A stretch of DNA of 64,000 nucleotides from Candidatus Nitrosomarinus catalina. Lineage in GTDB: Archaea; Thermoproteota; Nitrososphaeria; Nitrososphaerales; Nitrosopumilaceae. The stretch spans positions 632,681-696,680 of the forward strand of contig NZ_CP021324.1 of NCBI RefSeq assembly GCF_002156965.1, given 5' to 3'. The translations under genes were made by a program, and so were the position numbers. Under the pieces are notes generated by a model that searched no databases, had not been told where the DNA came from, and saw only the letters and a list, made by a program, of their open reading frames with translations. This document shows, one piece after another, positions 1 to 55,416 of the stretch (its first letter is position 1; each line of letters begins with the position of its first letter).

Positions 1-308
1 TTTCCCGTTTCAACATAGTTTGTAATTATGTCTCCTTCAATTGTCTCAAAAAACACATTACAATAATGACACTGGTAATCTCCAAACTCCACTAATGTAA
101 TTGGTGCATTAGGATCACCATAGACTGTTGAACCATTTTCTAGAAATGTTTCCATTGTAATTTTGGCAGGTCCGATACTATCCATTTCGGGTGTTGGTTT
201 TATTGCTAATTCAGACTCATCAAAAGTTCCATTTAGTCCAAAAATTACAGCCACTATTGCAATTGATGCAATAATGGCACCTATGGCTAAAGATGGTGGA
301 TGAATCAA
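1..308 (-). CDS. DsbA-like thioredoxin-fold protein, membrane anchored (partial, 3' end outside window)
   Basis: The reverse strand from about 308 reads an N-terminal hydrophobic anchor (LAIGAIIASIAIVAVIF) and then a DsbA-type segment containing NAPITLVEFGDYQCHYC. This gives the CxxC redox motif (CHYC) just after the conserved GDYQ. The family oxidises or reduces disulfides on the outer side of the membrane. An upstream in-frame TGA limits the start, and the first usable start codon is TTG at 308..306. Only about 100 residues are in the window, so the C-terminal part and the cis-Pro loop cannot be checked. It is a paralogue of the interrupted gene at 53.4 kb, with the same NAPIT and DYQC blocks. 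Confidence 0.85.
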   Translation of the reverse strand, partial: MIHPPSLAIGAIIASIAIVAVIFGLNGTFDESELAIKPTPEMDSIGPAKITMETFLENGSTVYGDPNAPITLVEFGDYQCHYCNVFFETIEGDIITNYVETG

Positions 309-31296: not shown

Positions 31297-33495
31297 TTAA
31301 TTATTAATCAAATGCTCAATTGAGACAATCATATCCCCCATTGTAAGTTTGTCTTCAGCTACCCATAAAGCTAGGTTTGCAACCCAGGGAGGTAGTTGTT
31401 CGTCTGGAATTCCTAAAATTTCTGCAAGTTCAGAAACATCTTGTGATGAACCAGTCCAATCAGAAACCACATCCAAAAGCATTGACTCATCATAAAATCC
31501 CAAAACCTTTTGATTAATTTTTGATTCAAAAACTAATGGTTCGTTTCCAGCAACCTTCAAAGTTAGTGGCAGTGCAACTTTGAAGAAATTTCCTGAACGG
31601 TCTGTAGCTTGTACCCAGACATCAGTTGTCTGCATTGGTTGCAAGAATTTCATCTTAAAGGATATGGTGAATGTGCCACCCAAATCATCTTGATTACAAC
31701 AAATTCTATTATCTAATTCTCCAGATTCATCTATTGTAATATCCGCAGAACTCCACTCTGCAGTTTGCGCATAATCATAAAATAAATCCTCTCCGGTTTG
31801 ATGCCACTCATAATATGTTGTACTAACTTTTCCGTACTCGTCAAAATTATTTGCATAAAACAAATTCATGTCATTAGGTCTGTCTAGAAAATTTGTGTAT
31901 GTTCCACTATCTGCAATTCTCTCCAATGTTCTGTTATCTGTAAGTTCTAAAATAATTTCAACTTCATCTCCAGGGTCTGCGATAATTGGAGTTTTGTAAT
32001 CATCAAAGATTGGATATGGTGTTTTTTGATCAAATATCCAAACATAATCACGTGTTTCAGATATTTGTGGAGAATTTTCATCAATTATCTCATCAGATGT
32101 GTTTGATGTAATGTGTATCTTAACTTTGGCTAATTTTGGGGCCTCACAATCATAACATTCATCACTTTTTTCCATCCCAATTCGGGTTTCTTCAACATCT
32201 ACTGTTGTGTATGTGTCTGGATCTCCTTGATTGAAGTATGTTGCTGCAGCATAATCGGCAGTTCTTAACCCACTTGAAATTCGAAATTCGTCAACCTTAC
32301 CTTTTAGTTCGTTGTTAACTTTAGCACAATTATTTCCGCCCTTAGCATCAATATCTCCTCCAAGAACCATTCTTAATTTATCTGTCTGAGTTTCTCGATT
32401 AAGACCTCCTGAACGATTTTCATCTTTTACCAATACTCCATTGATATACAATTGACTGTTTCCTTGTGTTCCATCTGCATCTTTTTGGTTGTATACGGCA
32501 ACAATGTGATTCCAATTTGTAAATGATGCAGGATTGTCATCTTGGACAGGATGTCCATCTGCATAACTTGCTGGAGATGTATTGTCAGTACTGACAAAGA
32601 AATCTCCCCTAATCTTCATTTTTACATTTTCTGCTCGCCATAAACTAATGTGGTTCTGATATGAACCATGCGTAGAACCTGCATCATAACAAACACTTAC
32701 CAAATCATTATACTGAGAAACAACTCCTCCAGAAGGAACATTTGTGATATCACCTGTCCACAACTCTATAGTAAAATCTCTTGAGGGCATTCCATCTAAT
32801 GAATTTATATAAATAAAATCTCCATTTCCATCTGCAGTACTTGTTTGTGTTGGACCTTTCAAATCCTGGCCTTTTCCAATTTGACCATCAGTTATGTGAG
32901 GAATTCTTCCAGAATCATATCCCACATCACTTCCCCCTCCACCTTTACCATCATTTCCGTTACTTGTAGAATCTTTGAATTCTCCTGATACACCAGTTGA
33001 AGTTTGATTCAAATGCCACACTACAACATAATCATCATTCCATACATCTGCAGAATTAAAACCAATTGTATCACCTTTGTAATAGATATACATCTCAGTT
33101 GTTGATGATGCAGACATTGTTGGTAATTTGACCCATACAATTACTTCACCCGTAGTATTATCAAATTTTTCAATTTCATGAGATAGCTCTGTTAGTCCAT
33201 CTGACTGTGTAAAAATAAAGTCTCTACCTTGTGACTCATTTGTTTGAATCAAATCCGTATCGGTAAATGAAATTAAAACAGGGAAATCAATTAGATCTGA
33301 ATCAACCCCTGTTGCAGTATTCAGGGATAGTGTAATGTTTTTCCTAAATTCCCATGAATCATGATACCAATTTTGTTGAGCAACTTTTACTTTTGATTGA
33401 GTTTGAACTACTGTTAGTTCTCCAAACGCATCAGAAGGCACAAGAAATACAAGAGAAAATAATGTTAAAACGGATAAAATTATTTTAATTTGCAT
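31297..33495 (-). CDS. Secreted DUF2341 / LamG-like surface protein with C-terminal WxxN repeat, 732 aa
   Basis: The signal peptide is IKIILSVLTLFSLVFLVPSDAFG. Then comes a DUF2341-like block (SWEFRKNITL, IDFPVLISF), a LamG/concanavalin-like jelly roll (about 150-410, ending at VDEFRISSGLR) and further Ig-like strands. A C-terminal repeat has PPWVANLALWVAEDKLTM, related to the repeats of the 1255-residue protease. Probable cell-surface binding protein, perhaps for glycans. Confidence 0.82.
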   Translation of the reverse strand: MQIKIILSVLTLFSLVFLVPSDAFGELTVVQTQSKVKVAQQNWYHDSWEFRKNITLSLNTATGVDSDLIDFPVLISFTDTDLIQTNESQGRDFIFTQSDGLTELSHEIEKFDNTTGEVIVWVKLPTMSASSTTEMYIYYKGDTIGFNSADVWNDDYVVVWHLNQTSTGVSGEFKDSTSNGNDGKGGGGSDVGYDSGRIPHITDGQIGKGQDLKGPTQTSTADGNGDFIYINSLDGMPSRDFTIELWTGDITNVPSGGVVSQYNDLVSVCYDAGSTHGSYQNHISLWRAENVKMKIRGDFFVSTDNTSPASYADGHPVQDDNPASFTNWNHIVAVYNQKDADGTQGNSQLYINGVLVKDENRSGGLNRETQTDKLRMVLGGDIDAKGGNNCAKVNNELKGKVDEFRISSGLRTADYAAATYFNQGDPDTYTTVDVEETRIGMEKSDECYDCEAPKLAKVKIHITSNTSDEIIDENSPQISETRDYVWIFDQKTPYPIFDDYKTPIIADPGDEVEIILELTDNRTLERIADSGTYTNFLDRPNDMNLFYANNFDEYGKVSTTYYEWHQTGEDLFYDYAQTAEWSSADITIDESGELDNRICCNQDDLGGTFTISFKMKFLQPMQTTDVWVQATDRSGNFFKVALPLTLKVAGNEPLVFESKINQKVLGFYDESMLLDVVSDWTGSSQDVSELAEILGIPDEQLPPWVANLALWVAEDKLTMGDMIVSIEHLINN

Positions 33496-33571
33496 TAGAT
33501 CTGAACGTCAATTTTGGTAATATGTAAAATTTTCAAATGGTTTGGGCACAAATATGTGATTATTGATGAGT

Positions 33572-34882
33572 TTACTGATGTTTTATGTCATCAAAAAATT
33601 TTGCAATCATCTTGATACCTCCTACTGTTTTTGGGGCATTATTTACAACAAATTCCGTTCGTTCTGAATGCGTCTTTGGTTTTTGATTTTTGTAATTTTC
33701 ATACACTTTACCTCCGTCATAATCCACATATGCAATTCTTGCACTATAGTCAGTTCGCTCTAAAACTAAGCTGTCTCCCCCTACTATCGCAGTATGATAT
33801 GGATGAACCATTAACGATTCAGATAATTTTTGTGATGTGGAAATTTTTGCTTTTTGTAAATCAGTTGCAAATGCATTAAAATCAGCTAAAAGATAGAATG
33901 TTGCGTCAGGTTTTGTTGCTTTCACCCCGTCAATTTCTAATAATGCCTCATGAGTATACTCCCCCATTATATGGTGAATGTTTCTTGTTATCTCAAAATA
34001 TTCATCCATTTCTTTGCTTACTTCAAATCCTGCAACTGCAGCATGTTGAATTGGTGTAGACACTGCAGTGTATTCCGTAGCTAGAATTTTTTTAAACTGT
34101 GATTTTAATTCAACTGCATATTGTGGAAAAACAACATAGCCCAACCTGTAACCGCCAGCTGCATGGGATTTTGATAATCCATTTGTTACAAAAGTTCCTT
34201 CTGGGTAAATTTTTCCCATACTGACAAATTTTGAAAAATTGAACGTAATTTGAGCATAAATCTCATCAGAAATTACTACGATGTTTTGTTCCCTACACAC
34301 ATCTGCAATTTCTTCTAATTCTAATTGATCATACAGTAAACCTGTAGGGTTATTGGGATTGTTTAAGATTAAGATTTTTTGCCTGTCTTGTAATCTTAAT
34401 GCTAATTTTCTCAAATCACTGGGAGATATTTTCTTATTTGCTCTAGTTGATAACATGTGATAATTTTTTTGCAAAAATCTGATTTGTGGCAGATATCCTA
34501 GCCATGCAGGTGTGGGCAAAATCACAGTTCCGTGTAAGATTTCTAATAGATTGAAGATGAGTTCCTTAGTTCCAGGACCCACATAGATGCGTTCAGGAGC
34601 CACATCCATGCCAAAATAATGCTTATTGTATTTTGAAATGGCATTTCGTAATTCTGGAATTCCTGGAACTGCAGCATATTCTCCTTTGTGTGAATTTTGA
34701 ATTAATGCATCTTGCATAATTTTTGGTACTGAAAATGGAGATTGTCCAAATGCAAATCCGTAAAATCCAAAACCACATTCAGGTTCATGGCAATCTGAGT
34801 GAAATTCTTGTAAAAATGTGTTTAATTTGAGATTTTCAGGCATCTCAATATCTTCAACTTGTTGATCAACTATGAATTTCAA
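33572..34882 (-). CDS. Class I/II aminotransferase
   Basis: PLP fold-type I enzyme, 436 residues: NPNNPTGLLYDQLELEEI is the Asn-Pro motif, VISDEIYA carries the PLP-ring Asp, and NGLSKSHAAGGYRLGYV carries the catalytic Lys in SKS and the phosphate Arg. The N-terminal extension (ECGFGFYGFAFGQSPFSV) is longer than in bacterial AspC. Aspartate or alanine transamination is likely; specificity cannot be read here. Confidence 0.88.
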   Translation of the reverse strand: MKFIVDQQVEDIEMPENLKLNTFLQEFHSDCHEPECGFGFYGFAFGQSPFSVPKIMQDALIQNSHKGEYAAVPGIPELRNAISKYNKHYFGMDVAPERIYVGPGTKELIFNLLEILHGTVILPTPAWLGYLPQIRFLQKNYHMLSTRANKKISPSDLRKLALRLQDRQKILILNNPNNPTGLLYDQLELEEIADVCREQNIVVISDEIYAQITFNFSKFVSMGKIYPEGTFVTNGLSKSHAAGGYRLGYVVFPQYAVELKSQFKKILATEYTAVSTPIQHAAVAGFEVSKEMDEYFEITRNIHHIMGEYTHEALLEIDGVKATKPDATFYLLADFNAFATDLQKAKISTSQKLSESLMVHPYHTAIVGGDSLVLERTDYSARIAYVDYDGGKVYENYKNQKPKTHSERTEFVVNNAPKTVGGIKMIAKFFDDIKHQ

Positions 34883-53435: not shown

Positions 53436-54080
53436 ATGAATTATTATTATTTTTTAATTCCAATTTTGATCGGAATTGTTGCAGGTTCATTTTTGGTACT
53501 ATATCAACCACAAAGTATAGATTCTAAAATATTGACACAGTCAAATTTAATAGAAAATGGCTCCCCAGTTTTAGGCTATTCTAACGCACCTATTACAATT
53601 TTGGAATGGTGAGATTATCAGTGCACATATTGCTACAAATTTCATCAAGAGACTTTAGATGTAATCAATGAGAATTTTATTCAAACAGGTAAAGTAAAAG
53701 TTATTTTCAAAGACTTTCCGCTAAACGGTCTAGATTCAAAACTTGCTGCACAAGCAAGTTATTGTGCAAATGATCAAGAAAAATATTGGCAATATCATGA
53801 TGAATTATACAAAAATTGGGGAGGAGAAAGAACAGGGTGGATCACACGAGATTCATTAACAGAATTTGCAAAAGAAATACAATTAGACATCAATGAGTTC
53901 AACAACTGTTTAGATGAAAACAAGTATGAAAATAAAATTGACAAAATTTATGATTTTGGAAAAGAAATTGGAATTGATGCAACACCATCATTTTTAGTAT
54001 TTAATAATGAAAACATCATTAAAATCAGAGGAAATCAACCCTTAGAAGTATTTTTGAAAACATTTGACGAATTAAGATAA
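53436..54080 (+). pseudogene. DsbA-like thioredoxin-fold gene interrupted by one in-frame TGA
   Basis: The frame from ATG 53436 is open for 215 codons except codon 59, TGA at 53610-53612. It reads an anchor (YYYFLIPILIGIVAGSFLVL), NAPITILEW, then TGA, then DYQCTYCYKFHQETLDV and a full DsbA-type domain ending at TAA 54080. The paralogue at 1-308 has GDYQC there, so TGA replaces a Gly codon. The rest of the frame is intact for 150 codons. Either a nonsense-mutated gene, a sequencing error, or readthrough; Sec use is unlikely in this lineage. Confidence 0.85.
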
Positions 54081-54135
54081 AAAAAATCATCCAAATCAAT
54101 ATTGATTAATATCCGAGAATTAGGACAATTATTGA

Positions 54136-55416
54136 ATGGTAAAAATCAACATAGAAAAACAAGATTCAGTTAAACTCTATAAAATTAGAAAGACCTTAGA
54201 AGAATTATCTAAAAAATCAGGTAGAGGAACAGAATTAATTACAGTATACATACCAAAAGGAAAACAACTTCACGAAATTATTGGATCATTACAACAAGAA
54301 CAAGGTACTGCCGATAACATAAAATCAGATTTAACAAGATCTCACGTGGTAGATTCTCTTGGCAAAGTAGTTTCAAAATTAAAAATGTACAAAAAAACGC
54401 CTGAAAAAGGATTGGTGGTTTTTTGTGGTGCATTACCACCTGAAGAAGGGGGACCTCTTGGAAGTGAAGTAGTTACAGCATGGGAGATTGAGCCTCCAAA
54501 AGATTTGAATCAATATCTTTACAGATGTGATGACCATTTTCATGTTGATATCCTAAAAGATATGCTAAAAGATGATAATCTGATTGGATTTTTGTCCATA
54601 GATGCAAAGGATGCAGGCTGGGGATTATTACATGGAGATAAAATTGAAGTTTTATCACAAACAGGTTCAGGAGTTGCAGGAAAACACAGACAAGGGGGAC
54701 AATCTGCAAAAAGATTTCAAAAATTGAGAGAAATGGAATTAAGTTACTTCTACAATCGAGTTGCACAAACTACAAGAGAATATTTTATCGATATTTATCC
54801 AGTAAAAGGATTAATTATTTCTGGACCTGGTCCAACAAAAGAAGATTTCATTAATGGAAATTATCTAGAATACAGATTACAAAATAATATTATCAATACC
54901 ATTGATGCAAGTTATTCAGGAGCTGAAGGCATTAGAGAAGCATTTGCCAAATCTGGAGACATTTTGGGTAATTTTAGATTAGTTGAAGAAAAAAAATTAG
55001 TTGAAGATCTATTTAGAGAAATTAATACAAATACGGGCAAGGGTTCATACGGATTACAAGAAGTAATTGAGTTTCTAAAAAATAATGTTGTTCAAATTTT
55101 ACTGATTACAGACAATACAAATCTGCACAGAGTGGAAGCAGAATGCAAACGTTGTAAAAAAATTCAAGAAGAAATTGTAGAAAGACAATTAGTCATTCCA
55201 AAAAAAACAGAATACAAAAACAATCCATGTCCAGATTGTAAAGCAATGGATACAGAAGTTAATGAACAAGATATTGTAGATTATTTACAAATTCTTGCAG
55301 CAAAAACAGGAACACAGTTAGAAGTTATTTCAGGTAGTGCAGAACATGGTAATATGTTGGGAAGTCTAGGAAAAATTGGAGCAATCCTGAGATATAATCC
55401 AGGTCACACTAAGTAA
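54136..55416 (+). CDS. prf1: Peptide chain release factor aRF1
   Basis: The archaeal/eukaryal release factor has NIKS (61-64) for stop-codon reading, the GGQ loop (GKHRQGGQSAKRF, GGQ at 187-189) that releases the peptide, and a C-terminal zinc-binding domain (CKRCKK, CPDCKA). 426 residues is the archaeal size. It lies 55 nt downstream of the TGA-interrupted DsbA gene on the same strand. Confidence 0.96.
   Translation: MVKINIEKQDSVKLYKIRKTLEELSKKSGRGTELITVYIPKGKQLHEIIGSLQQEQGTADNIKSDLTRSHVVDSLGKVVSKLKMYKKTPEKGLVVFCGALPPEEGGPLGSEVVTAWEIEPPKDLNQYLYRCDDHFHVDILKDMLKDDNLIGFLSIDAKDAGWGLLHGDKIEVLSQTGSGVAGKHRQGGQSAKRFQKLREMELSYFYNRVAQTTREYFIDIYPVKGLIISGPGPTKEDFINGNYLEYRLQNNIINTIDASYSGAEGIREAFAKSGDILGNFRLVEEKKLVEDLFREINTNTGKGSYGLQEVIEFLKNNVVQILLITDNTNLHRVEAECKRCKKIQEEIVERQLVIPKKTEYKNNPCPDCKAMDTEVNEQDIVDYLQILAAKTGTQLEVISGSAEHGNMLGSLGKIGAILRYNPGHTK

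Follow-up and report, generated by a model that had tools for sequence, protein, structure and literature searches.

A DsbA-like gene interrupted by an in-frame TGA

The window, a stretch of 64,000 nucleotides (positions 632681-696680), comes from the single-contig genome of a marine archaeon (Nitrosopumilus) that oxidises ammonia; this genome has 1,360,076 bases and is 98.9% complete. It contains a gene for a membrane-anchored protein of the DsbA-like thioredoxin-fold type that is interrupted by one in-frame TGA and followed by the gene for the peptide chain release factor aRF1 (Table 1). Direct translation of the frame (MNYYYFLIPILIGIVAG...APITILEW*DYQCTYCYKFHQE...KTFDELR*) gave 214 residues and a terminal TAA, with codon 59 as the lone internal TGA. 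The frame stays open for 155 further codons past this TGA without another lesion. The original prediction, made from the letters of the sequence, had described exactly this: a frame complete except for codon 59, with no other disabling change behind it.

The part of the frame after the stop matched Thioredoxin_4 (PF13462; 6.9e-22, 78.8 bits against a cut-off of 23.2) and DSBA (PF01323; 7.3e-13, 49.2 bits against a cut-off of 25.6), and it resembles the structures of BdbD and DsbA. It also carries the CxxC active site of the family (C-T-Y-C) shortly 3' of the TGA. The first 58 codons hold a hydrophobic N-terminus only and matched no Pfam family. Among the open reading frames listed, no in-frame start lies ahead of the CxxC that could serve as an internal restart. 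The gene has the same fold as the DsbA/BdbD-like oxidoreductases by sequence match, as well as their CxxC and N-terminal hydrophobic segment, but differs from them in that its coding frame is broken upstream of the active site. Since 155 more codons are open, the frame is 93% identical overall to that of a congener and purifying selection has acted on it (see below), the observation goes beyond chance. Three intact paralogues are present in the genome, making four DsbA-like genes in all.

Table 1. Coordinates of the interrupted DsbA-like gene and its surroundings, numbered from the first base of the window.
Feature	Position	Strand	Basis
DsbA-like thioredoxin-fold gene, membrane-anchored type, with one in-frame TGA	53436..54080	+	Translation; Pfam; PDB relatives BdbD/DsbA
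58 codons that the standard code still translates; signal/anchor and beginning of the fold, without CxxC	53436..53609	+	Translation; ORF list; no Pfam match
In-frame TGA (codon 59) at the Gly codon of the orthologues	53610..53612	+	Sequence; orthologue alignment
155 post-stop codons with CxxC, constrained, without other lesion	53613..54077	+	Alignment; dN/dS
Spacer to aRF1, 55 nt	54081..54135	+	Alignment
Intact gene for the peptide chain release factor aRF1, with NIKS, YxCxxxF and GGQ	54136..55416	+	Profile matches; motif check

The replaced glycine and the age of the stop

A search of 95 genomes of the genus found a match to the gene in 91. No stop occurs in any other match listed; the genome analysed here alone carries one. 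The aligned orthologues invariably have Gly at position 59 (33 of 33), within the motif EWGDYQC encoded as TGG GGN GAT/GAC, the Gly codon being GGA, GGT, GGG or GGC. The stop is thus absent from the orthologues, as in a nonsense pseudogene. Because the orthologues read TGG-GGN, the Trp codon ahead of the stop is normal and the TGA replaces Gly. The glycine had been deduced earlier from the paralogue at window positions 1-308, which does read TTTGGAGATTACCAGTGT on its own coding strand; Phe precedes Gly in this paralogue, while the orthologues, which are the better comparison and agree on the glycine, have Trp as here.

GGA had been named as the codon to be expected. The aligned orthologues all have a Gly codon, but that of the nearest relative compared (apparently Nitrosopumilus sp. 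MED-G94) is GGT instead of GGA. The outgroups have GGA or GGC, in most cases GGA. With these outgroup codons and GGT in the nearest relative, a change from GGA to TGA takes one step on this branch, and by parsimony the simplest history would be GGA to TGA on this lineage with a separate silent change in MED-G94. No relatives of the gene were found in viral contigs, and no paper on this gene was found in the literature. Should the genome be that of SPOT01, a metagenome-assembled genome from San Francisco Bay (SFB_27_05_bin1) stands at 99.23% ANI to it (PMC8788347), and there are further SPOT01-like ones.

The region behind the stop was under constraint until recently. Compared with MED-G94, dN/dS is 0.14 before the stop and 0.11 after it; the sample has a median of 0.064 and an upper quartile of 0.106, placing the gene somewhat above the median and near the upper quartile. 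When changes on this branch were polarised with outgroups, the post-stop part showed 6 nonsynonymous and 8 synonymous changes, and neutral evolution along the whole branch was rejected (P = 0.001). By maximum likelihood, constraint has been relaxed for 0-7% of the branch; the 95% upper bound lies at 35-41%, according to which background dN/dS is taken. These are rough figures, the assignment of single changes to branches leaning mainly on one outgroup. No post-stop residue is unseen in relatives (33 aligned orthologues). Relaxed constraint, the sign of an older pseudogene, is not seen after the stop at a dN/dS of 0.11, a value that fits a very young event and gives no positive sign of decay. 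Recency of the stop explains the intact tail, although on sequence alone so intact a tail would also fit expression by rare readthrough.

Assembly quality and decoding of TGA

The main rival to a real mutation is a consensus error, in which a single wrong base call in the assembly hides an intact gene. A lone substitution, unique to this genome and lying in an otherwise undamaged gene, is compatible with such an error. Against it stands a survey of 724 kb of this genome (in stretches) compared with 566 kb of MED-G94, which took in about 410 orthologous gene pairs of at least 100 aa and about 124,000 aligned residues. No frameshift in this genome was seen among these residues, and the DsbA-like gene is the sole real gene with a mid-gene stop among the pairs, so the assembly looks clean. 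Most other matches in the survey, sorted by inspection, were short or antisense open reading frames or stops near the frame end. The length of the gene is also kept, unlike in the indel errors usual for long reads. A miscalled base is an unlikely explanation, if the one to be taken most seriously among the alternatives.

A second apparent TGA interruption, in a gene near genome position 1,327,990, turned out to be a non-coding upstream extension, with dN/dS of about 1.1 before the TGA and 0.08 after it. The same comparison showed a 351-aa gene of the MED-G94 metagenome-assembled genome (G017, C1:271882-272938) that is seemingly frameshifted there and intact in the genome of the window. Two adjoining genes at 31297-34882 of the window have dS values of 0.78 and 0.92 against MED-G94 (sample median 0.21), which suggests replacement or recombination.

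TGA is in use as a terminator in this genome. It ends 62 of 400 orthologous genes in the normal way, 54 of which end in TGA in the relative too. A reassigned code with TGA as a sense codon was rejected on this count, and the earlier exclusion of a general reassignment holds.

Insertion of selenocysteine at the UGA can be set aside almost entirely. The NCBIfam model for thioredoxin-like (seleno)lipoproteins matched the tail, but below its cut-off (95 versus 190 bits). Neither tRNA-Sec nor SelB, the pair that would mark a selenoprotein-making genome, was found above curated cut-offs; the tRNA-Sec matches below cut-off turned out to be ordinary tRNAs for Ser, Gly and Cys, and those of SelB are ordinary GTPases. 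The UGA, moreover, replaces Gly, and both cysteines of the CxxC are encoded by TGC.

Another reading is near-cognate readthrough of the UGA, which the original prediction had offered. A tRNA such as tRNA-Trp would then give some full-length DsbA, possibly sensing the supply of release factor. Constraint on the tail and the location of aRF1 55 nt downstream speak for it, but the constraint is accounted for by the recency of the stop and the motifs of aRF1 are intact. No suppressor tRNA with a UCA anticodon was present among 43 tRNA-like places; intron-bearing tRNAs were resolved with the intron option of ARAGORN, and the weakest place (1313152), not called by that program, has the anticodon CCT (Arg) by eye. 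A four-pair anticodon stem in tRNA-Trp is described as favouring UGA decoding in some organisms (PMC13092985). The tRNA-Trp here carries the anticodon CCA, and its anticodon stem, with 5 pairs or more, is unremarkable, so the UGA-favouring four-pair stem is absent. The RNA fold after the stop is not unusual (z = -1.1), and no Rfam match was found near it. Stop-codon readthrough in archaea has been demonstrated only for selenocysteine and pyrrolysine according to a 2021 review (PMC8211752). Conservation of the stop among relatives, expected of programmed readthrough, is also missing, as the TGA occurs in no relative despite the common gene order. With the TGA absent from relatives, no recoding components found and a tail explained by recency, near-cognate readthrough finds no support and is very improbable.

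The aRF1 neighbour and the fate of the gene

The gap between the two genes was measured at the 55 nt given earlier, and aRF1 itself shares 99% identity with its counterpart in MED-G94. Most relatives have dsbA and aRF1 in this order across a short spacer, and dsbA is open in all of these. The adjacency is ancestral synteny. A TATA-like ATTAATAT in the spacer is kept in the alignment of near relatives, which suggests that aRF1 may have its own promoter. The link between the stop and aRF1 implied by the original prediction is not supported, as most relatives share the order with an open dsbA and one congener has aRF1 without a detectable dsbA.

Bacterial prfB, encoding RF2, is autoregulated through an in-frame UGA. 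The present locus resembles it in having an in-frame UGA near the gene of a release factor; here, however, the UGA interrupts the neighbouring gene instead of the factor's own, is not conserved, and has no identified frameshift site with it. A strain-specific, recently evolved recoding beside aRF1, with partial near-cognate readthrough and full-length DsbA tracking release-factor activity, is likewise very improbable. If true, readthrough would be a rare case of stop recoding in archaea involving neither selenocysteine nor pyrrolysine.

A very recent, strain-specific nonsense mutation that inactivates one of four DsbA-like paralogues is the probable explanation. The earlier suggestion of such a mutation agrees with the lack of TGA in relatives, the intact tail and the recent constraint. 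An ordinary membrane-anchored DsbA-like thiol oxidoreductase would have lost codon 59, a Gly codon, to TGA through one nonsense mutation. The mutation would have arisen very recently in this strain's lineage, and it may have done so in the wild population or under enrichment culture. Only 58 residues would now be translated; as the chain would end ahead of the CxxC active site, the product would be inactive, and the three intact paralogues probably cover the loss. The reality of the base, the lack of any full-length protein and compensation by the paralogues are all inferred. The gene shares with recent nonsense pseudogenes a single stop in one genome only, a frame otherwise intact and recently constrained, and intact orthologues; nothing sets it notably apart from them, and it stands at the very young end, without secondary lesions. 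Most likely the event is an ordinary young nonsense mutation with no new decoding trick, and as such it matters little. It does show that this strain may be able to do without one of its four DsbA-like genes, and the annotation of the gene should say pseudogene.

In the congener G027, a fragmented, 90%-complete draft, no dsbA was detected beside aRF1 (85% identity), and the strongest match to the query in the rest of that genome is paralogue-like only (1.4e-45). The DsbA-like gene seems to have been dispensable at least once, although a fragmented draft makes this suggestive only. The 1.2 kb upstream of the intact aRF1 in G027 (L153, 2779-4278) gave no Rfam match and holds other open frames. 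At four other loci (L007, L010, L014 and L018) an intact dsbA lies next to cbtA and aRF1 is not directly downstream; the dsbA-aRF1 synteny is thus broken in a few lineages.
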